From the NCBI RefSeq assembly GCF_040812015.1, contig NZ_JBFNXJ010000007.1, forward strand, positions 124,001-188,000: a stretch of 64,000 nucleotides of DNA, given 5' to 3'. Under the pieces are notes generated by a model. It saw nothing but the letters and a program-made list of their open reading frames with translations. It was not told the origin of the DNA and searched no databases. Positions 18,356 to 29,436 of the stretch are shown one piece after another; position 1 is the stretch's first letter; each line of letters starts with the position of its first letter. The stretch is from Chitinivorax sp. PXF-14. Lineage in GTDB: Bacteria > Pseudomonadota > Gammaproteobacteria > Burkholderiales > SCOH01. Made by a program: the position numbers and the translations under genes.

Positions 18356-18397
18356 TTGATTATCATCAAGCCATACCGAGCGAGCGTTAGAGAGAAT
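18356..18397 (+). promoter_or_regulatory. FNR/ANR-type box and promoter of exporter operon
   Basis: Perfect FNR box TTGAT-TATC-ATCAA at 18356-18369, centre 18362.5. A -10-like GAGAAT at 18392-18397 predicts a start near 18404, which puts the box at -41.5, the class II activator position. This suggests induction at low oxygen by FNR/ANR (or a DNR-type relative). Confidence 0.7.
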
Positions 18398-18428
18398 GAT
18401 CCCTACACCCGTAGCTTCGAGGATATCG

Positions 18429-19715
18429 ATGCGTGCCACGTGTCTTACCCTGCTTGCCTTGATCGCCCTGCCATCCGTCCAGGCCGAAACGCTGGACCAG
18501 GCATGGGCCGAGGCGCTGGCCAGCAGTCAGGTGCTCAAATCGTCGGCGCAGCAGCAGCGTGCCGCTGCGGCAACCCTATCGGCGGCCCAGGGCGCGCGCT
18601 GGCCGAGCCTTTCGGTCGAGAGCGCCTACACGCGGCTGAATGAGGCGCCGGCCGTGTCGGCCAGCCTGCCTTTGCCGGCACCGCTGCCGCATGAGCTGAC
18701 ACTGCCGATCAGCGACGAACGCTTTCACACGCGGGCGGCGACGGTGACCTTGCCCTTGTTCACCAGCGGCCGCATCCACTATGGCATCGAAGCCGCCCGC
18801 GCCGGTGTGGCGATGTCGGATGCCGAGTCGCAGCGTACAGCCCAGGACGTCAAGCTGGCAGTGACCGAGGCCTATTTCAATGTGCTGCGCGCGCGCCAGC
18901 TGCGTGAGGTGGCGCGGCACCTGGTCGACGGCATGCAGCGCCATCGCCACGATGTCGAGCAGTTCTACCGGCAGGGCCTGGTCGCCAAGGCCGACCTGCT
19001 GACCATCGACGTCGCGCTGGCCGACGCCAGGCAGAAACAGATCCAGGCCGACAACGCGGTCGACCTCAGCGCAGCGGCCTACAACCGCTCGCTGCAACGC
19101 CCGCTGGGTCAGACGGTGGCGCTCGACGACACGCAGCTCGCCGCCGACGCGCGTTCGCTGGACGAGCTGACCGCGCTCGCGCAACGCACTCGGCCCGAGC
19201 TGGCGCAACTGGAGCAGGCGCGCTCGGCGCTCAGCGCCCAGGCCAGGATGACGCGCGGCGAGGATGGCCCGCAGGTGGCGCTGATCGGCGGCTACCAGCA
19301 TCTCGAAAACCCCTATCTGAAGCAGGACAGCTTCCGCTCGCTGAGCATCGGCGTGAAGTGGAATGTGTTCGATGGCGGCGTGGTACGCCACCGTGCCGCC
19401 GCGCTCGACGCCAAGGCCGAGGCACTGCAGGCGCAGCAGGACGACGCGCGCTCGTGGATCGCGCTCGACGTGCGCCAGGCTTACAACAACCAGCGCGAGG
19501 CGCAGGCGCGGCTCGAACTGGCCACCAGCACGGTGGCGCAGGCTGAGGAAGCGCTCCGCGTCGCCCGCGACCGTTACGCCAACAGCCTCGCGCCGCAGAG
19601 CGAGGTGCTCGACGCCGAAACGCGCGAGGCCAACGCGCAGAGCAATTACCACAATGCACGCTACGACCTGCAGCTCGCGGTCGTGCGCATCCGCCGCGCC
19701 GTCGGCGAATTGTGA
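18429..19715 (+). CDS. TolC-family outer membrane efflux protein
   Basis: Outer-membrane channel of about 428 aa with a signal peptide ending at VQA-ET, then two repeats of the OEP helical domain (long Ala/Gln/Arg-rich coiled coils). It provides the outer-membrane duct of a tripartite exporter. Start 18429 puts MRATCLTLLALIALPSVQA first; an ATG 33 bases upstream would add 11 residues before the signal. It leads an operon with a periplasmic adaptor, a double-ATPase ABC protein and two permeases. Confidence 0.9.
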   Translation: MRATCLTLLALIALPSVQAETLDQAWAEALASSQVLKSSAQQQRAAAATLSAAQGARWPSLSVESAYTRLNEAPAVSASLPLPAPLPHELTLPISDERFHTRAATVTLPLFTSGRIHYGIEAARAGVAMSDAESQRTAQDVKLAVTEAYFNVLRARQLREVARHLVDGMQRHRHDVEQFYRQGLVAKADLLTIDVALADARQKQIQADNAVDLSAAAYNRSLQRPLGQTVALDDTQLAADARSLDELTALAQRTRPELAQLEQARSALSAQARMTRGEDGPQVALIGGYQHLENPYLKQDSFRSLSIGVKWNVFDGGVVRHRAAALDAKAEALQAQQDDARSWIALDVRQAYNNQREAQARLELATSTVAQAEEALRVARDRYANSLAPQSEVLDAETREANAQSNYHNARYDLQLAVVRIRRAVGEL

Positions 19716-19761
19716 TGCCTCCTACCCCATGCCAAGCGCGCCCATCTGACCGGACCGATCG

Positions 19762-20865
19762 ATGAAGCCAAACCTCAAACTCGCCCTTCCCGCTGCTGCC
19801 GTGCTCGCCGCTGCCGGCTACCTCGTGTGGCAGCAGCTCGACAACCGCCATACCCTGCCCGACGGGCTGATCCAGGCCAATGGCCGACTGGAGGGTGACC
19901 ATCTGTCCGTCGCGGGCAAGACGCCCGGCCGCATCGCGGCACTGCTGGTCAAGGAGGGCGACGCGGTCAAGGCCGGCCAGCCGCTGGCGCAGCTCGAAGA
20001 CGTGCAGCTCAAGGCCAAGGCCGACCAGGTGGCGCAGACGGTGGCCGCGCTCGAAGCCCAGCTGACAGCGGCGCGCACCGCGCTCGGCGTGCTCGAGAAG
20101 GAGGTGCCGCTCGGTGTCACGTCGAACGAGGCGCAGCTTGCCCGCGCCCGCGCCAGTGTGACCAAGGCGCAGGCCGCCGAGGTGCAGGCCAGACGCGATG
20201 CAGCGCGCATGAAGGAATTGCTGGCGCGCGGCTCGGTCGAGCGCCACAAGAGCGAGCTTGCCGAGCTCGGTGCGACGGCCGCCGCGGCCGACACCGAAGC
20301 GGCGCGCAGCGCTCAGCTGCAGGCCGAGCAGGCGCTGGCGCAGGCCCGGCTCGGCCACGACAAGGTGAAGGCGAAGGCCGCCGAAATCGGCGCGCTCGAA
20401 GCTCAGCTGGCGCAGGCGAAAGCGGGCCTGCGCGAGATCCAGAGCGTGGTGGACGACCTCACGCTGAAAGCACCGGCTGCCGGCGTGGTATCGAGCAAGG
20501 TGCGCGATGTCGGCGAGGTGGTGGCGGCCGGCTCGCCGGTGTTCGACGTGGTTGACCTCGATCACCTCTACCTCAAGGTCTACGTGCCCGAAAACCAGAT
20601 CGGCAAGCTCAGGCTCGGCCTGCCGGCCCGCATCTATACCGATGCCTTCCCCAACACCGCCTTCAACGCCACGCTGCGCACCATCGCGAGCCGTGCCGAA
20701 TTCACGCCGAAGGAAGTGCAGACGCCCGACGAGCGTGTCAAGCTGGTCTACGCAGTCAAGCTGTATCTCGACCAGAACCCCGAGCGCAAGCTGACGCCGG
20801 GCATCCCCGCCGATGCGGTGATCCGCTGGCAGGACGGTGTCGCCTGGCAGGCGCCGCGCTGGTAG
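19762..20865 (+). CDS. HlyD-family periplasmic adaptor (YbhG-like)
   Basis: Membrane-fusion protein of 367 aa. It has an N-terminal anchor (about 7-25), a lipoyl half (near 45-80), a long Ala/Gln coiled coil (about 80-225) and a second lipoyl/beta-barrel part (LKAPAAGVVSSKVRDVGEVV). It bridges the inner-membrane ABC complex to TolC. Sequence and order match E. coli YbhG-YbhF-YbhS-YbhR, here with a tolC gene included. The downstream ATPase starts six bases after its stop. Confidence 0.9.
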   Translation: MKPNLKLALPAAAVLAAAGYLVWQQLDNRHTLPDGLIQANGRLEGDHLSVAGKTPGRIAALLVKEGDAVKAGQPLAQLEDVQLKAKADQVAQTVAALEAQLTAARTALGVLEKEVPLGVTSNEAQLARARASVTKAQAAEVQARRDAARMKELLARGSVERHKSELAELGATAAAADTEAARSAQLQAEQALAQARLGHDKVKAKAAEIGALEAQLAQAKAGLREIQSVVDDLTLKAPAAGVVSSKVRDVGEVVAAGSPVFDVVDLDHLYLKVYVPENQIGKLRLGLPARIYTDAFPNTAFNATLRTIASRAEFTPKEVQTPDERVKLVYAVKLYLDQNPERKLTPGIPADAVIRWQDGVAWQAPRW

Positions 20866-20871
20866 CCGTCG

Positions 20872-22809
20872 ATGAGCGGGAGCGTGATTCGTGCCGCGGG
20901 CTTTGCCAAGCGCTATCGCCAGCATGTGGCGGTGGCGGGGCTCGACATCGAGGTCGGGCGCGGTGAGATCTACGGCCTGATCGGCCCCGACGGCGCGGGC
21001 AAATCGAGCTTCATGAAGGCCGTGGCCGGGGTGCTCGCCTTCGAGTCGGGCGAGCTCGACGTGTTCGGTGAGCGCATCGATTCGGAGCGCGCCGCCGAGC
21101 GCATCAAGGGCCGCATCGGGCTGATGCCGCAGGGCTTGGGCCAGAACCTCTATGCCGACCTGTCGGTGGAAGAGAACATCGATTTCTTCGCGCGCCTGCG
21201 CCTGGTGCCCGAGGCTGAACTCGGCCCGCGCAAGGACAAGCTGCTGAAGATGACGCGGCTCGACAAGTTTCGCGACCGCGCGATGAAGAACCTGTCGGGC
21301 GGCATGAAACAGAAGCTGGGCCTGGTCTGCACGCTGATCCACGAGCCTGGGCTGATCATTCTCGACGAGCCGACCACCGGCGTGGACCCGGTGTCGCGGC
21401 GCGACTTCTGGGCCATTCTCGGCGAGCTGTTGCAGGAACGCGGCATCACCGCGCTGGTGTCGACCGCCTATATGGACGAGGCCGCGCGCTTTCACCGCAT
21501 GTCGCTGCTGTTCGAGGGCAAGGTGCTGGCGCAGGGCACGCCCGAGGCGATCCTCGCGCTGGCGCCGGGCAGCGTCGTCACCGTGCAGGCGAGCCCGCAG
21601 GTCGAGGCCTTGCAGCGGCTGAAGCAGGCGCACCCGCAGATCGAGGCGCAGGGCGCCTATCTGCGGCTGTTCGTCGATGCGCTGTCGACCACGGCCGCCG
21701 CGCAGCAGGTGGCGGCGGCGCTGGCACCGCTGCAGGTGGTGGGGCTGACCGCTGCCGAGCCCGAGCTCGAGGATGTCTTCGTCGCGCTGTTGCGCCAGCG
21801 TGGGCTGGCGGCCGGTGACAGCAGCCTGGAAAGCGACATGGCCGGCGCGGGCAAGCGTCAGGCGGCGGCTGCCGCGGCGATCGAAGCACGGCAGCTGACG
21901 CGCCAGTTCGGCGAGTTCAAGGCTTGCGATCAGGTCAGCTTCAGCGTGCCGCCGGGCGAGATCTTCGGCCTGCTCGGCGCCAATGGCGCGGGCAAGACTA
22001 CCGCGATCAAGATGCTGACCGGCATCCTGCCGCCATCGTCCGGCGTGGGCCAGGTGGCCGGCGCCGACATGCGCACCGCCGGGCGGCAGATCAAGGAACG
22101 CATCGGCTATATGTCGCAGGCGTTCTCGCTCTACATGGATCTGACGGTGCTCGAAAACATCCGCCTCTATGCCGGCATCTACGGCCTCGACCGGCGCCAG
22201 ATGACCGAGCGCACCGGCTGGATCGTCGCCATGGCCGGGCTCAAGGGGCACGAGCACGACCTCGCGGCGACGCTGCCGATGGGCCTGCGCCAGCGCCTGG
22301 CGCTCGGCTGCGCGCTGGTGCACAAGCCGCAGGTGCTGTTCCTCGACGAACCAACCTCGGGCGTCGACCCGATCGGCCGCCGCCAGTTCTGGGACATCCT
22401 GTTCCACCTGTCGCGCGTCGAGGGCGTGGCAATCCTGATCACCACGCACTACATGAGCGAGGCCGAGCATTGCGACCACATCGCGCTGATGTTCGCCGGC
22501 CGCGTCGTCGCCGACGCCTCGCCGACCGCACTCAAGGATGAGCTGCGCGGCAAGGTCGGCACCTTGCTCGAAGTGGCCACCGATGCGCCGCAGCCGGCGC
22601 TGCGGGCATTGCAGTCGGCCGGTTTTGGCGATGCCTCGCTGTTCGGCAAGAAGATCCACCTGTTCACGCACCAGGCGGACACCGCACCGGCCGCCATCCG
22701 CGAGGCCCTGGCCGGCGCCGGCGTGGCCTGCCAGGCGGTCGAGCCGCGGCCGATCTCGATGGAGGATGTCTTCGTGCAGCGTGTGACCGAACTGGAGCGG
22801 CAGACATGA
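20872..22809 (+). CDS. ABC exporter ATPase with two nucleotide-binding domains (YbhF-like)
   Basis: Duplicated ATPase of 645 aa. The N-terminal domain has Walker A GPDGAGKSS, signature LSGGMKQ and Walker B ILDEPTTGVDP. The C-terminal domain has Walker A GANGAGKTT and Walker B FLDEPTSGVDP, but its signature is LPMGLRQ, lacking the usual Ser-Gly-Gly, as in other YbhF proteins. It energises two ABC-2 permeases encoded next, and its stop overlaps the first permease start (ATGA). The substrate is unknown; E. coli homologues export drugs and cations. Confidence 0.93.
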   Translation: MSGSVIRAAGFAKRYRQHVAVAGLDIEVGRGEIYGLIGPDGAGKSSFMKAVAGVLAFESGELDVFGERIDSERAAERIKGRIGLMPQGLGQNLYADLSVEENIDFFARLRLVPEAELGPRKDKLLKMTRLDKFRDRAMKNLSGGMKQKLGLVCTLIHEPGLIILDEPTTGVDPVSRRDFWAILGELLQERGITALVSTAYMDEAARFHRMSLLFEGKVLAQGTPEAILALAPGSVVTVQASPQVEALQRLKQAHPQIEAQGAYLRLFVDALSTTAAAQQVAAALAPLQVVGLTAAEPELEDVFVALLRQRGLAAGDSSLESDMAGAGKRQAAAAAAIEARQLTRQFGEFKACDQVSFSVPPGEIFGLLGANGAGKTTAIKMLTGILPPSSGVGQVAGADMRTAGRQIKERIGYMSQAFSLYMDLTVLENIRLYAGIYGLDRRQMTERTGWIVAMAGLKGHEHDLAATLPMGLRQRLALGCALVHKPQVLFLDEPTSGVDPIGRRQFWDILFHLSRVEGVAILITTHYMSEAEHCDHIALMFAGRVVADASPTALKDELRGKVGTLLEVATDAPQPALRALQSAGFGDASLFGKKIHLFTHQADTAPAAIREALAGAGVACQAVEPRPISMEDVFVQRVTELERQT

Positions 22810-23960
22810 ATGTGCAACGGGTGGTGGCCGTCGCCTACAAGGAATGGCGCGAGATCGTGCGCGACCGGCTGTTCTTCTCGCTTGCCTTCGTGGTGCCGGC
22901 GGTGCTGATGCTGCTGTTCGGCTATGGCCTGTCGCTCGATGTCGAGAACATCCCGTTCGCGGTAGTCGATTACGACCACTCGGCGCAGAGTCGCGACTAT
23001 GCCTACCGCTTCATCGATTCGCGCTATTTCGACTTCAAGGGCTATGTGCGCGACGAGCGCGAGCTCGGCGGCCTGCTCGCGCAGAGCCGGGTGCGCGCCG
23101 CCATCGTCATCCCCGAGCATTTCGGGCAGCGCCTGCAGGCCGGGCGTGGCGCCCAGGTGCAGACGCTGGTCGACGGCACCTTCCCGTTCCGCGCACTGAC
23201 CACCAAGGGCTATGTCACCGCGATCAACGCCAGCGCCAACCAGGAGACCATCGCGCAGCTATTGGCCCGCGCCAAGGGCGTGCCGGTGCAGACGGCGCGT
23301 GAGGCGGTGCAGCCGGTCAGGCTCGAGGTGCGCTATCTGTACAACCAGAGCGTAAAGAGCATCTGGTCGCTGGCGCCCAAGCTGCTGATGGTGATCCTGA
23401 TGATCTCTCCACCGTTTTTGACGGCGCTCGGTGTGGTGCGTGAGAAGGAGTCGGGCTCGATCTTCAACATCTACAGCTCGACTGTCACGCGCGGCGAGTT
23501 CCTGTGCGGCAAGCTCGCGCCCTATGTCGCCATCTCGGCGCTCAACATCCTGGCGCTGTGGCTGCTCGCCACGCTGCTGTTCGCGGTGCCGTTCAAGGGC
23601 GGTTTCCTGTTCTTCATGGCGGCGAGCCTGATCTATGTCATCTGCACCACCGGCATCGGCCTCATGGTGTCGGTGCTGGTGCGCACGCAGGTAGCGGCGA
23701 TGATCGTCACCGCCATCGTCACGGTGATCCCGGCCGTGCTGTACTCGGGCGTGCTGATCCCGATCCCCTCGCTCGGGCCATCGGCGCAGGCCATCGCCCA
23801 CCTGCTGCCGGCGATGTACTACACCAACATCGTGGTCGGCTGCTTCCTCAAGGGAGTCGGCCTCGCCGCGCTGTGGCCCGATGTGCTGATCCTGGCCGCA
23901 TACGCGGCGGTGCTGTTCACGGTCGGCTTCACCATGTTCCACAAGCGGCCCGTATCATGA
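22806..23960 (+). CDS. ABC-2 type permease (YbhS-like)
   Basis: Inner-membrane permease of 384 aa. One N-terminal helix (about 24-42, LFFSLAFVVPAVLMLLFGYG) is followed by a large periplasmic loop and five helices in the C-terminal half, the ABC-2 membrane family 3 plan. The conserved cytoplasmic segment VREKESGS is present. It overlaps both neighbours by four bases. It pairs with the next permease to form the heterodimeric channel. Confidence 0.92.
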   Translation: MNVQRVVAVAYKEWREIVRDRLFFSLAFVVPAVLMLLFGYGLSLDVENIPFAVVDYDHSAQSRDYAYRFIDSRYFDFKGYVRDERELGGLLAQSRVRAAIVIPEHFGQRLQAGRGAQVQTLVDGTFPFRALTTKGYVTAINASANQETIAQLLARAKGVPVQTAREAVQPVRLEVRYLYNQSVKSIWSLAPKLLMVILMISPPFLTALGVVREKESGSIFNIYSSTVTRGEFLCGKLAPYVAISALNILALWLLATLLFAVPFKGGFLFFMAASLIYVICTTGIGLMVSVLVRTQVAAMIVTAIVTVIPAVLYSGVLIPIPSLGPSAQAIAHLLPAMYYTNIVVGCFLKGVGLAALWPDVLILAAYAAVLFTVGFTMFHKRPVS

Positions 23961-25111
23961 CCCGGCTCGATCTACAGGTGTGGGGCCGGCGCCTCGCGGT
24001 GATGACCAAGAAGGAATTCCTGCAGCTGATGCGCGACGCGGTGCTGCTGGTGTTCATCGTCTACGCCTTCACCGCCGACATCTATCTCGCCGCCTCGGGC
24101 GTCACGCTGCAGCTCAACCATGCCGCCACCATGGTGCGCGATCTCGACCGCAGCGCCGCCTCGCGCGAGCTGCTCGGGCGCTTCCAGCCGCCCTACTTCC
24201 GCCTCGACGGCGAGCTCGCGAGCGACGCCGAGGGGCTGCACCGGCTCGACGATGGCAGCGCGATGCTGACGCTCGACATCCCGCCGCAGTTCGAGCGCGA
24301 CCTCGCCACCGGGCGGCAGACAGCGCTGCAGATGCAGGTTGATGCCACCAACAGCGTGCTCGGCTTCCTCGCCAGCAGCTACGCGGCGCAGATCGTCGGT
24401 GGCTACGGCCTGGAAGTCGGCCTGAAGCAGCTCGGCGTCGGTGGCGGCAATGCCGATGCGCTGCCGGTGGTCGATAACCGCATCCGCGTCTGGTACAACC
24501 CGAACCAGAACGACGCCTGGTTCATGGGCATCTCCGAGCTGCTCAACATCATCACCGTGTTCGCCATCCTGCTGCCGGCAGCGGCGATGGTGCGCGAAAA
24601 GGAACGCGGCACGGTGGAGCAGTTGCTGGTGTCGCCGCTGACGCCGTTCCAGATCATGTTCCCGAAGGTGATCTCGATGACCGCGGTGATCCTGCTCGGC
24701 ACGGCGCTGAGCCTGTTCGCGGTGCTGCTGCCCGGCTTCGGCCTGCCGGTGAAGGGCAGCCTGCCGCTGTTCTTCGCGCTGACCGGGCTCTACATCTTCA
24801 CCACCGCCGGGCTCGGCCTGTTCGCCGCCACCATTGCGCGCAATCTGGCCCAGGTCGGCATGCTGACGATCCTGATCCTGGCGCCGATGCTGTTCCTCTC
24901 CGGCGCCTGGACGCCGCCCGAAGCGATGCCGGTGTGGCTCAGGCAGCTGACCTTCGTCTCGCCGCTGCACTACTACATCGACATCGCCTTCGGTATCCTG
25001 CTCAAGGGCCAGACGGCGGGTGAACTGCTGCCGCTGATCGGCGGCATGCTGCTGCTCGGTGGCGCGGTGTTCGGCTTCGGCCTCTATCGTTTCCGCCGCC
25101 AGTTCGGCTGA
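23957..25111 (+). CDS. ABC-2 type permease (YbhR-like)
   Basis: Second permease, 384 aa, same plan as the previous one: N-terminal helix (about 28-48), periplasmic loop, then five to six helices with VREKERGTVEQLLVSP before them. The ATG at 23957 overlaps the previous stop; an open frame upstream of it is not used. It is the last gene of the exporter operon. A 165-bp gap without a clear terminator separates it from the protease-TPR pair. Confidence 0.92.
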   Translation: MTRLDLQVWGRRLAVMTKKEFLQLMRDAVLLVFIVYAFTADIYLAASGVTLQLNHAATMVRDLDRSAASRELLGRFQPPYFRLDGELASDAEGLHRLDDGSAMLTLDIPPQFERDLATGRQTALQMQVDATNSVLGFLASSYAAQIVGGYGLEVGLKQLGVGGGNADALPVVDNRIRVWYNPNQNDAWFMGISELLNIITVFAILLPAAAMVREKERGTVEQLLVSPLTPFQIMFPKVISMTAVILLGTALSLFAVLLPGFGLPVKGSLPLFFALTGLYIFTTAGLGLFAATIARNLAQVGMLTILILAPMLFLSGAWTPPEAMPVWLRQLTFVSPLHYYIDIAFGILLKGQTAGELLPLIGGMLLLGGAVFGFGLYRFRRQFG

Positions 25112-25276: not shown

Positions 25277-27106
25277 ATGACCGCTTTTCCCTCTTCTTTG
25301 CCCCGCCGCCTGTGGCCGGCCTTGTGTACCGCACCGCTGCTGATCGCGCCGGCGGCTTCCGCGCTGACCGCGCAGCAGCTCTACCAGCAGGCGCAGCTGC
25401 AGGTGCTCGCGCTCGAACGGCTCGACAAGCAAGGCCAGGTGCAGTCGTACACCTCGGCGCTGTGGGTGGCGCCCGGCAAGGCCGTGACCCAGTGCGACCA
25501 GCTCGACAACGCCGAGGGGCTGCGCCTGAAGCTGGGCGAACGGCTGCTGCAGGCCAGGCTGGATAAGCGCGATGCCAGCCGTAACCTGTGCCTGCTCGAC
25601 GTGCCAGGCGCCGGCCCGGTGGCCGTGGCGACATGGCGCGAGGCCGACCCGCCACCGGGTGCCGTCGTATTCGCCGTCGGCAACGCACTGGGCATGGGGG
25701 TGAGCATTGCGGAAGGTGTGGTGGCGGGTGTCAGGCAGTTCAGCGGCGAGAATTACGTGCAGTTCACCGCCGCGATCGCGCCGGGCTCGGAGGGCGGCGG
25801 CCTGTTCGACGCCGAGGGGCGGCTCGTGGGCATGATCAGCTACCGGCCGCGTGACGGCCAGAACATCAACTTCGCGCTGCCCGCGCGCTGGCTCGGCGAG
25901 GTCGAGCAGCGTTCGGCCAGCGCCGATGGCATCGCCGAATGGCAGGGCAAGGCCCAGGCGCTGTCGCGCGACGCAAACTGGAAAGCCCTGGCCGAGCTGG
26001 CGCAACGCTGGACCATGGCGCTCGGGGACAGCAGCGAAGGCTGGCTCTGGCTCACGCTCGCGCACAGCATGCTGAAAGACTGGCCCGCCGCCGAAGCCGC
26101 CGCGCATCAGGCCCTGCGGATCGATCCCGGCCTGATCGAGGCGGGACTGAGCCTGTCCGAAGCGCAGGTGCAGCAGGGCAAGGCCGCCGAGGGGCTGGCC
26201 ACGGCCCAGGCCCTGCTCGCCCAGCGCCAGGAGGATGCGCGTATCTGGCTCGCCATCGGCCATGCCGAGCTGGCCCGGCAACACCTGGCCGAAGCGCGCC
26301 AGGCGCTCGAGCGGGCTGCCGGCTTCGCGCCATGGAACTACGCCGTGCAGCTCGGCCTGAGCCGGCTCGCCTATCAGCGCGGCGACTGGAACGCGATGGT
26401 GGCGGCCCAGCAGCAGCTCACCCGGCTCAACCCCGGCAACGTCGATTCGTGGATCATCCTGTCCGACGCCTATCGCAACGCCGGCCGGCCCGAGCGTGCG
26501 CTGGCGAGCGTGGACAAGGCGCTGGAACTGGCGCCCGACAATGGCGACGCGTGGGTCGGCAAGGGCAATGCCCTGCACCAGCTCAAGCGTGACCAGGAAG
26601 CGATCGCCGCGCTGCAAAAAGGGCTGGGGCTCAAGCCGCTGCGCGCCGCCGATGGCTGGGTCGGCCTCGGCGACGTCTATTACACGCTCGGCCTCTTTCC
26701 CGAGGCGATCAACGCCTATCGCCAGGCGCGCCGCATCGCGCCCGACGGCTTCACCCCGGTCGCCCGGCTGCAGGTGGCGCTCAAGGACAACTATCAGTTC
26801 GACGAGGCGATGCGGCTCGCGCAGCAGATCAAGGCGGAACACCCGGACGACCCGTTCCCGCATCGCCAGATCGGCTTCATCGATGGTTATCAGGGCCAGT
26901 ACGAACAGGGTATCCCGGCGCTGGAGCGGTCGCTGGCGCTGAACCCGAACCAGGCCAAGGTGTGGATGGCCCTGCTCGAGCAATACATGGGTACCGGCCG
27001 CCGCGACGAGGCCGTGCGCGGTTACCGCAAGCTTGCGGCAATCGATGCGGGCGCGGCCGAGAATGCCTATCGGCGGCTGTTCCTGCCCTACGGGATCACG
27101 CCATGA
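25277..27106 (+). CDS. Catalytically dead trypsin-like protease domain fused to TPRs
   Basis: Exported protein of 609 aa: signal peptide (about 1-29), an S1/HtrA-like domain (about 35-205) and TPR repeats (about 215-600). Compared with the next gene, all three catalytic residues are replaced: His by D74 (TQCDQL versus TNCHVI), Asp by N103 (RNLCLL versus RDLCQL) and Ser by E172 (GSEGGGLFD versus GSSGGGLFD). The fold residues around them are kept, so it is a pseudoprotease, not a decayed gene. It probably acts as a periplasmic scaffold or regulator of its active neighbour, whose ATG overlaps its stop. Confidence 0.88.
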   Translation: MTAFPSSLPRRLWPALCTAPLLIAPAASALTAQQLYQQAQLQVLALERLDKQGQVQSYTSALWVAPGKAVTQCDQLDNAEGLRLKLGERLLQARLDKRDASRNLCLLDVPGAGPVAVATWREADPPPGAVVFAVGNALGMGVSIAEGVVAGVRQFSGENYVQFTAAIAPGSEGGGLFDAEGRLVGMISYRPRDGQNINFALPARWLGEVEQRSASADGIAEWQGKAQALSRDANWKALAELAQRWTMALGDSSEGWLWLTLAHSMLKDWPAAEAAAHQALRIDPGLIEAGLSLSEAQVQQGKAAEGLATAQALLAQRQEDARIWLAIGHAELARQHLAEARQALERAAGFAPWNYAVQLGLSRLAYQRGDWNAMVAAQQQLTRLNPGNVDSWIILSDAYRNAGRPERALASVDKALELAPDNGDAWVGKGNALHQLKRDQEAIAALQKGLGLKPLRAADGWVGLGDVYYTLGLFPEAINAYRQARRIAPDGFTPVARLQVALKDNYQFDEAMRLAQQIKAEHPDDPFPHRQIGFIDGYQGQYEQGIPALERSLALNPNQAKVWMALLEQYMGTGRRDEAVRGYRKLAAIDAGAAENAYRRLFLPYGITP

Positions 27107-29436
27107 AGCGGACGCTGATTGCGGCCTCGCTGCTGCTGGCCCTGCCCTGCCAGGCCGACGACGCGGCGCGCGTGTTCGATAGCGTACGCGCGTCGGTGGT
27201 GACCATCGCCACGCGCGACGAACACCGGCAGATCGACAGCGAAGGCAGCGGCGTGGTGATCGGCCCGGCGACGGTGATCACCAACTGCCACGTCATCCAG
27301 CTCGCGACCGAGATCGAGGTCACCGTCGCTGGCAAGCCCATGGCGGCCGAGCCGGCATTGCAGGACGGCGAGCGCGACCTGTGCCAGCTGCGCGTCGCCG
27401 GGCTCGCGGCCCCGGCCGCCGTGGTACGCGGCTACCAGGCGCTGAAGCCTGGCGAGCCGGTGTTCGCCGTCGGCAATCCGCTCGGGCTGGGCGTGTCGGT
27501 CAGCGCTGGCATCGTGTCGTTGCTCGATGCGCGCAACGGCCAGATCTTTACCAGCGCGCCGATCTCGCCGGGATCGAGTGGCGGCGGCCTGTTCGACGCC
27601 GAGGGCCGGCTTGTCGGCATCACCACGCGCCAGTACGGCGGCGCGCAGAACCTCAATGTGGCGATCCCGGCTGACTGGATCGCCGAACTCGCGCGCCGCG
27701 GCCGCAAGCCTGTTGCGGCGCCGAGCCCGCGCGGCGCGGACCCGGACTGGCCGGCGGAGGCCGAGGCACTGCGCGCCAGCTCCGATTGGCCGCAGCTGCT
27801 CGAACTGGCGCGGCGCTGGCGCCAGGCCTATCCGACCTCGGCCGAGGCCTGTGCGCTGCAGGGCCTGGCGCTGTACGAACTCAAGCGTTACGGGGAAGCC
27901 CGGCAAGCGCTGCAGGCCGGGCTGGCGGCAAATTCCCTGCACGAGAAGTCCTACAGCTATCTCGGCCTGGTGCAGCGGGCCGAGGGTGACAGGCGCGCGG
28001 CCTATGCGAGCGTCGACAAGTCGCTCGCGATCTGGCCGTTGTCCCCGTATTCGCTATGGCTCAAGGCCGACTGGCTGCGCCAGGACGGCTCGCTCGACGA
28101 GGCGCAGAAGCTGGCGGAACACGCGCTGCGCCTGATGCCGTGGCTTGACGGCGTATGGGAAACGCTCGGCGACGTCCGCATGCTCAAGAAGCAGTATGGC
28201 GACGCGGCCGAGGCCTATCGCGTGGCCCAGCGGCAGCGCCAGGGTGATGCGCGCATCGCCGGCAAACTGGCCGAAGCATTGGCCGCGACCGGCGACACGC
28301 GCGGTGCGCGGCAGTTGCTGGCGGCCCAGCCCGAGCAGGCGACGGACGCCAACAGGAGCTGGGTCGATGTCGGCCTGGCCGACGCGCAGCTCGGCCGCCA
28401 CGGCGAAGCCGAGCGCGCCTATCGCAAGGCGCTGGCGCTCGATCCCGCCAATGCGCAGGCCTGGTATTACCTGGCGCTCACGCTGGTGGCCACCGGGCGC
28501 GTGCCCGAGGCCGAGCAGGCCTTGCAGGAGTCGGTCCGGCTCAAGGCCGATCTGGCCGGGGCCTGGGTCAAGCTCGCGCAGATCCGCGCCGAGCGCAACG
28601 ATCTGCCGGGGGCAAGGCAGGCTTTCGAACGGGCGACCGCTGCCGAGCCGGCCGACGCCAACCACTGGGTCATCCAGGGGCTGGTGCTCAAGCACGCCGG
28701 CGACCCGCGCGGCGCGCTGGCGGCGCTGGAGCGGGCGGCCCAGCTCGGCAGCAGTGATGCCAATGCCTGGGCTACGCTCGGCGAGCTGCGCATCCGCAAC
28801 GGTTCGCTACAGACCGGCCTGGCCGCGCTGCAGAAGGCGCTGCAGCTCGATCCCAGGCACGTCAACGCGCTGCTTGGCATGGTGATCTACCACGGGGGAC
28901 TCGGTGAACAGGACAAGGCGCTCGCCTTCTCCGAACAGGCGCTCGCAATCGACGGCACCCAGGCCGCGGCCTGGAGCAGCAAGGGCTACGCCCTGCTCAA
29001 GCTCAAGCGCCTGCCGGAAGCGACGCAGGCATTCGAGACCGCCACCCGCCTCGATCCCGATTTTGCCAACGCCTGGATCAATCTGGGCGAGGGTTATCTG
29101 TATCAGCGCCAGCTCGGCAAGGCCATCACCGCACTCGAACGCGGCATCAAGCTCGCGCCGGGAGCCACCGATGCGCGCTATTACGCGGCACAGGCCTATG
29201 CCGCCACGGCTCAGCTCGGCAAAGCCCGCGAACATCTCGAAGTGGTGCTGCAGCACTCGCCGAACATGGCGCCGGCACTCTATCTGCTGAGCGGCGTCAA
29301 CCTCGGCCTGCACGACCAGACGGCACTCGATGCATCGCTGCGCCGGCTCGGCGAGGCCAACCCGACCATGGCGCGCAAGTTCCGCGACGAGGCGATGGCG
29401 CGCGGCCTGCCACAGGGCATCACGTTGTCCAACTGA
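27103..29436 (+). CDS. Periplasmic trypsin-like serine protease with TPR repeats
   Basis: Protein of 777 aa with signal peptide (LLALPCQA-DD), S1C/HtrA-type protease domain and about twelve TPR-like repeats (about 215-770). The triad is complete: H63 (TNCHVI), D92 (ERDLCQL) and S159 (GSSGGG). There is no PDZ domain; the TPRs may do substrate selection instead. The ATG overlaps the pseudoprotease stop, so both are translationally coupled. Substrate unknown. Only the ECF41-type promoter lies between it and the next operon. Confidence 0.88.
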   Translation: MKRTLIAASLLLALPCQADDAARVFDSVRASVVTIATRDEHRQIDSEGSGVVIGPATVITNCHVIQLATEIEVTVAGKPMAAEPALQDGERDLCQLRVAGLAAPAAVVRGYQALKPGEPVFAVGNPLGLGVSVSAGIVSLLDARNGQIFTSAPISPGSSGGGLFDAEGRLVGITTRQYGGAQNLNVAIPADWIAELARRGRKPVAAPSPRGADPDWPAEAEALRASSDWPQLLELARRWRQAYPTSAEACALQGLALYELKRYGEARQALQAGLAANSLHEKSYSYLGLVQRAEGDRRAAYASVDKSLAIWPLSPYSLWLKADWLRQDGSLDEAQKLAEHALRLMPWLDGVWETLGDVRMLKKQYGDAAEAYRVAQRQRQGDARIAGKLAEALAATGDTRGARQLLAAQPEQATDANRSWVDVGLADAQLGRHGEAERAYRKALALDPANAQAWYYLALTLVATGRVPEAEQALQESVRLKADLAGAWVKLAQIRAERNDLPGARQAFERATAAEPADANHWVIQGLVLKHAGDPRGALAALERAAQLGSSDANAWATLGELRIRNGSLQTGLAALQKALQLDPRHVNALLGMVIYHGGLGEQDKALAFSEQALAIDGTQAAAWSSKGYALLKLKRLPEATQAFETATRLDPDFANAWINLGEGYLYQRQLGKAITALERGIKLAPGATDARYYAAQAYAATAQLGKAREHLEVVLQHSPNMAPALYLLSGVNLGLHDQTALDASLRRLGEANPTMARKFRDEAMARGLPQGITLSN

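Follow-up and report, generated by a model that had tools for sequence, protein, structure and literature searches.

A conserved pseudoprotease gene coupled to the gene for an active-type protease, both with TPR arrays, in Chitinivorax sp. PXF-14 and other bacteria

HtrA proteases function in oligomeric form, and their non-protease domains serve to switch them. Few systems are known in which a live trypsin-fold protein is paired with a dead one, among them MamE/MamO of magnetotactic bacteria and the clip-domain serine protease homologs (cSPHs) of insects. MamO, as described in the accessible part of its report, is a catalytically dead trypsin-fold protein that binds metals, carries a TauE-like transporter domain and a residue other than glycine at position 193, and activates MamE-dependent proteolysis without catalysis of its own (PMC4794232). 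The insect cSPHs appear in the available excerpt of PMC10540698 as non-catalytic trypsin-fold cofactors in the protease activation of prophenoloxidase. A comparable pair of genes, here called A and B, lies in a stretch of 64,000 nucleotides from Chitinivorax sp. PXF-14 (the window), in which a conserved pseudoprotease gene is coupled to the gene for an active-type protease, and both products end in arrays of tetratricopeptide repeats (TPRs). Other genomes, loci and contigs are cited below by working handles (G, L and C numbers). The features of the locus are as follows.

25277..27106, forward strand: gene A, a pseudoprotease-TPR protein of 609 amino acids; its N-terminus is a hydrophobic stretch, a likely Sec signal on hydrophobicity alone
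25361..25912, forward strand: pseudoprotease domain of A (about residues 29-212), with D74, N103 and E172 at the catalytic positions
25979..27097, forward strand: TPR array of A, with some 11 repeats; the model shows 23 helices beginning at residue 203, of which the first is a long linker
27103..27106, forward strand: overlap of the A stop and the B start (ATGA, 4 bases)
27103..29436, forward strand: gene B, an active-type protease-TPR protein of 777 amino acids counted from ATG 27103
27157..27699, forward strand: protease domain of B, with H63, D92 and S159 intact
27748..29400, forward strand: TPR array of B, about 16 repeats, most conserved at about residues 630-697; the model shows 33 helices beginning at residue 216

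Both proteins match Pfam Trypsin_2 above its cut-off of 27.6 bits, A over residues 64-186 (63.8 bits, E 3.9e-17) and B over residues 48-173 (90.4 bits, E 2.3e-25), and many TPR families match both. No Pfam match to PDZ is found in A or B at E<=0.01, and TPRs thus stand where HtrA proteins have PDZ domains, as the initial annotation of the locus had proposed. The AlphaFold2 models (A: mean predicted local distance difference test score, pLDDT, 88.7 and predicted template modelling score, pTM, 0.62; B: 89.8 and 0.55) consist of a strand-rich N-terminal domain, followed by helices alone up to the C-terminus. The open reading frame (ORF) of B, listed from GTG 26962, probably starts too early; ATG 27103 is the likely start, because the signal-like stretch begins there. 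Since both proteins of the pairs carry such an N-terminal stretch, secretion of A and B to the periplasm is likely, the signal peptides being predicted from hydrophobicity only.

The motifs around the catalytic positions read TQC-D74, SR-N103-LC and PGS-E172-GGGLFD in A, and TNC-H63, ER-D92-LC and PGS-S159-GGGLFD in B. The initial annotation had described A as a protein in which H, D and S are replaced within a kept fold, and B as its overlapping, active-type partner, both with TPR arrays; the residues, the coordinates, the ATGA overlap and the Pfam TPR matches all bear this out. Sequencing error as the cause of the lesion in A was rejected, given that A-type genes total 23 in 22 genomes with the window's included (22 genes beyond the window). 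The His-Asp-Ser triad is complete in none of them (His missing in 23/23, Asp in 22/23, Ser in 23/23). The His position is never His, being D or E in seven genes each, A, S or G in two each, and R, N or T in one each. At the Asp position stand N (15), A (3) and, once each, G, R, Q, E and D, the last in G912; the Ser position, never Ser, holds E in 18 genes, A in two, and G, T and D in one each. For these counts G816 was read separately from the alignment of the other 22 A genes. H-D-S is present in all 21 B genes with a readable domain, while the B of G325 on contig C62 is a 77-residue fragment that has the His and stops ahead of the Asp. From its complete triad, B is predicted to be an active-type serine protease.

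Around this variable site the A domain holds 19 invariant positions in the 22 aligned genes: A61, C73, L104, C105, G128, A133, G141, G147, Q162, A165, G173, G174, L176, D178, G185, G194, N196, A200 and R212. C73 and C105 are thus kept throughout, while the His position takes eight different residues. Invariant fold residues beside variable catalytic positions indicate that the catalytic site of A is relaxed and its fold constrained. The most conserved segment of A is 165-198 around the lost Ser (mean identity 65%), followed by 131-164 (51%) and the TPR segments 471-504 and 539-606 (42-47%), all over 19 sequences, a set that leaves aside the near-copies G1009, G1033 and G325a as well as G816. 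In B, conservation peaks at 154-187 around Ser159 (69%) and at TPR residues 630-697 (54-56%), in a profile likewise without the near-copies and also without G912 and G325b, whose B genes are cut by contig ends. Invariant TPR residues include K503, D504, R530 and Q531 in A and W658 and N660 in B. The conserved segments of both proteins are candidate binding faces.

The replacements in A are themselves biased, with Glu at the Ser position in 18/23 genes and Asp or Glu at the His position in 14/23, and the dead site might therefore be imagined as a new active or metal-binding site built on a carboxylate pair, E172 with D/E74. However, A genes that are intact in other respects can carry S, G, R, N, A or T at position 74 and A, G, T or D at position 172. 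As Glu at the Ser position is common but dispensable, a new enzyme in A is disfavoured; the carboxylate-pair enzyme was rejected on the variation at position 74, and such a function is highly improbable. With the dead site variable and the fold fixed, A is most likely a non-catalytic subunit.

B lies directly downstream of A in 22 of the 23 cases, and the survey of the tandem in other genomes that the initial annotation had called for thus found the pair kept. In all 22 pairs A comes first, and its stop codon is a TGA that overlaps an in-frame start of B by exactly 4 bases; that start is ATG in 20 pairs and GTG in two (the frame of the G325 C62 pair was confirmed). The length of A from the start of the matched domain to the end is 580-591 residues in 22/22, and B, if started at the overlap, measures 777-834 residues in the proteins that are not cut by a contig end. 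G816 stands outside the counts of overlap, alignment, length and conservation and outside the comparison of A and B trees. In the 249-genome family to which an Azonexus metagenome-assembled genome (MAG) belongs, a B-type match at E<=1e-60 occurs in 15 genomes and adjoins an A in all 15. Seemingly lone B genes in G979, G945 and G876, found with the B profile, were rejected as such, since reading of the flanks revealed a divergent A upstream of each. In G1009, G1033, G945 and G979 the pair lies on contigs of more than 4 Mb. In a 399-genome sample of the order the B profile matched 10 genomes at 1e-60, four of them with the pair; the remaining matches (G049, G051, G053, G199, G251, G311 and a second gene of G296) fall outside the B group by tree, G053 and G199 having been read over short flanks only and G251 holding one of the looser pairs described below.

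The genome samples overlap and their thresholds differ, and the counts of A-type genomes are lower bounds. Profile searches with A recovered A-type genes in 4/399 genomes of the order (window's included; cut-off 1e-40), in 2/10 genomes of one family (1e-55) and 3/74 of another (1e-50), and in 1/369 genomes of the class, namely the window's own (1e-50); the matches of G421 and G549 in the class search are active-type. The Azonexus MAG's family holds A-type genes in 15/249 genomes (1e-60), including three divergent ones that the A profile missed and that were reached through B by reading the flanks. One of the five genomes of the window's family has an A-type gene. Among 60 genomes around the window's (its own included), the best matches read outside that genome are active-type, bar the looser pair in G026. 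Two full-length pairs came from a scan of named genomes, one in the Azonexus MAG (L038), where A has 42% identity, and one in a Thiobacillus MAG (L039), where it has 40%. Searched with the N-terminal 208 residues of A, the window's own genome returned A itself, then B at 36% identity, and three weaker hits at 30-35%. A plasmid search with A at 1e-20 gave no match. G325 (87% complete, 6% contamination) contains two distantly alike A-type genes on separate contigs (L096, L097), which reflect either an additional copy or an assembly of mixed origin.

A careful tree was built from 44 domains, nine of them from the 23 A and seven from the 21 B genes; in it the A rows form one group (100/99) and the B rows another (99/99). 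A quick tree of 72 rows includes all A and B domains, and there the 23 A rows are split off by one branch (Shimodaira-Hasegawa-like approximate likelihood-ratio test, SH-aLRT, 100) and the 21 B rows by another (83). For either group to count as a clade, the root must lie outside it. The dead copies, as one group with a varying catalytic site and a fixed fold, would separate the role of the fold from that of the catalytic residues. The test of whether A and B are sister groups gave an approximately unbiased test value (p-AU) of 0.475, and direct duplication of B, which the initial annotation had proposed, is one candidate origin of A. Trees of 20 A and 20 B proteins, built without G912, have 14 of 17 splits in common, against a mean of 0.25 and a maximum of 3 in 2000 random trees, and this agreement points to joint inheritance of A and B.

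The pair is conserved, then, in its retention of the dead A, its catalytic loss, its joint inheritance, its 4-base overlap and its near-constant architecture. With a probability of about 0.62, A and B are read here as subunits that together form a heteromeric protease, secreted and probably located in the periplasm, in which B would be the catalyst and A a non-catalytic adaptor or activator. In the proposed mechanism, B would contribute an HtrA-like domain of trypsin fold, its triad complete, together with a superhelix of some 16 TPRs, and A would be a pseudoprotease subunit with some 11 TPRs. Ribosomes probably re-initiate on B at the stop codon of A (ATGA), and the 4-base overlap suggests coupled translation, which would yield both proteins jointly and at a constant ratio. 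A would then dock on B via protease-protease contacts, as HtrA domains do among themselves, and/or via TPR contacts, and as an adaptor or allosteric activator would bring substrate to B. Secretion, coupled translation, binding of A to B, and activation rather than inhibition are all inferred steps in this scheme, and regulation of B by A and binding of the two products had likewise been proposals of the initial annotation. A stricter version, that the pair is an obligate hetero-oligomer in which an HtrA-like catalyst with a 16-TPR superhelix in place of PDZ works only with its co-translated dead 11-TPR twin, is held tentatively, at somewhat less than even odds; if true, it would be a previously undescribed kind of two-component secreted protease.

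Several observations weigh against a heteromeric protease. Agreement between the trees can be obtained from shared species history alone, and so speaks for joint inheritance and not for contact; joint inheritance does not prove a complex, and contact between A and B and their activity are predictions from sequence. Overlaps of 4 bases are common in operons, and many pairs have further in-frame B starts near the overlap. The authors of the MamE/MamO study, in the accessible part of their text, detected no physical interaction between the two proteins (PMC4794232). Some paired B genes score no higher than single genes of G311, G051 and G049, and B-type genes are told apart from single active relatives by tree and position, not by score. 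The close copies G1070/G1009/G1033 and G296/G325 C62 cannot be counted as independent, and both named genomes are MAGs. Finally, in G816 (83% complete) the A gene runs after 248 residues into unrelated sequence, with no B. A lone and truncated A of this kind would be expected if A were a decaying duplicate on its way out. Decay is hardly credible, however, and was rejected, because the 22 full-length A genes are of near-constant length and form a single tree group, and because the ratio of nonsynonymous to synonymous substitution rates (dN/dS), for the A gene of G296 compared with that of G325 (C62), comes to 0.10 over the pseudoprotease domain (TPRs: 0.153), a value from one close gene pair whose assemblies are 92 and 87% complete with 6% contamination each. 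The initial annotation had named random decay of the first gene in homologues as evidence against its reading; none was seen apart from the truncated G816 copy.

At its locus (L109, 4674-5420, forward strand) the truncated A of G816 meets an oppositely oriented ORF that looks hydrolase-like by eye, and it may be the product of rearrangement or misassembly.

The main rival to an adaptor or activator is an inhibitor or folding chaperone: A would be made first and would hold B inactive, via the dead domain or the TPRs, until a signal or substrate displaced it. The order of the genes, with A first in 22 pairs and a 4-base overlap, agrees with this, as does the finding that each of the 15 B-type genes in the 249 genomes has its A, and the conserved segment 165-198 round the former active site (65%, 19 sequences) would fit a binding face. 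The closest bacterial precedent points the other way, for MamO activates, according to the portion of PMC4794232 at hand. Present evidence fits activation and inhibition alike, and inhibition is considered the less likely of the two.

Alternatively, A might serve the same pathway in a role of its own, such as TPR scaffold or peptide-binding protein, and make no contact with B. Over seven lineages (21 comparisons) mean identity is 46% in the A domain and 51% in the B domain, and the TPRs of A, at 38.5%, are at least as conserved as those of B, at 33.4%, which would suit an independent role. Yet pairing, order and overlap are constant though the neighbours differ, and the one lone A that was found is truncated; a separate function is therefore rather improbable.

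MamO/MamE may be regarded as the nearest characterised precedent. The likeness, so far as the consulted part of PMC4794232 goes, lies in a dead trypsin-fold protein and an active HtrA-type protease encoded in the same gene cluster, with the triad lost in a kept fold. By contrast, A has TPRs in place of MamO's transporter domain, a TPR array goes unmentioned for MamO/MamE in that part, and the non-glycine residue at position 193 of MamO is set against a Gly in 21 of 22 A genes (G170 in A numbering). The NCBIfam MamE model NF040960 gives B 37.8 bits against a cut-off of 800, which is not reached, and for A the model is not in the best 25 of 26 matches. The A-B pair may resemble MamE/MamO in its general mode of action, but is not placed in that family, given the score below the model's cut-off and the TPRs in place of the transporter domain. 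No magnetosome genes were seen in the flanks of the pair, although no search was aimed at them. The initial annotation had known of no characterised system of this form: the pairing of pseudoprotease and protease, itself confirmed here, had already been characterised in MamO/MamE, whereas the TPR arrays find no mention in the part of that report available, and the overall reading of the annotation is thus partly supported. No description of an A-B TPR pair was found in the literature searched, in so far as it was accessible, most subscription papers lying outside its coverage.

DegP, DegQ and DegS of the Do family of HtrA proteases share with the pair the Trypsin_2 fold and, with B, the triad, and the Do model TIGR02037 matches the protease domains of both A (50.4 bits) and B (102.5 bits). 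The pair differs in that these scores stay below the cut-off of 416.2, in the TPR arrays found instead of a PDZ match, and in the dead partner encoded alongside. The insect cSPHs offer a eukaryotic analogue, being like A non-catalytic trypsin-fold partners; as depicted in the excerpt of PMC10540698, they belong to the S1A family of animals and carry clip domains, and a common origin with A is not implied. The A-B pair is a clean new case of the known principle of live and dead protease, in a TPR version outside the MamE/MamO family. As a compact two-gene unit with about 40% identity, the same overlap and no PDZ, it would make pseudoprotease control of a trypsin-fold protease testable by one co-expression construct.

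Single protease-TPR proteins from the same order and class (e.g., G049, G051, G311, G421 and G549) have a homologous protease domain with H-D-S and TPR-like repeats, as judged by eye. They differ in having one protease ORF per locus, at seven loci with wide flanks (L099-L102 and L110-L112), and in lying outside the A and B tree groups. One of them, G421 (L111, 300-1964, reverse strand), lacks the usual three residues in the loop ahead of the catalytic Ser but keeps the Ser, and is possibly an impaired copy.

A looser adjacent pair of proteases occurs in another family (f23) of the same order, in G026 (L010), G251 (L073) and G155 (L074). The upstream copy keeps the Cys-His and has Asn for Asp in G026, Asn for Ser in G155 and an intact triad in G251. 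The ORFs of the looser pair share a frame in G026 and G251, where they follow one another with one stop between them, and are in different frames in G155. These genes were rejected as A-type, since they fall outside the A group in the tree, and were left out of the counts; they may represent an independent, looser pairing of live and dead proteases.

The neighbours of the A-B pair vary between lineages, and no listed neighbour occurs in more than 4 of 22 loci, the flanks being very unequal and two loci nearly without any. The neighbour common to four loci resembles a syntenic NAD+ synthetase by eye. Upstream of A, the window carries at 18396-25111 what looks like an exporter cluster, in which family matches point to a TolC-like outer membrane protein and to an HlyD-like adaptor, together with genes for an ABC ATPase and an ABC-2 permease, recognized by eye; this cluster was not seen beside the other pairs whose neighbours were read. 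In G296 the pair is adjoined by a PpiC-type isomerase and by a subtilase with DUF11 and an IPTL-CTERM signal (L094, 7593-9764, reverse strand); relatives of this subtilase occur among the ORFs that flank the pair in G325 (C62) and G979. A pyridoxamine oxidase-like gene neighbours the pair of G271, and a GGDEF protein that of the Azonexus MAG.

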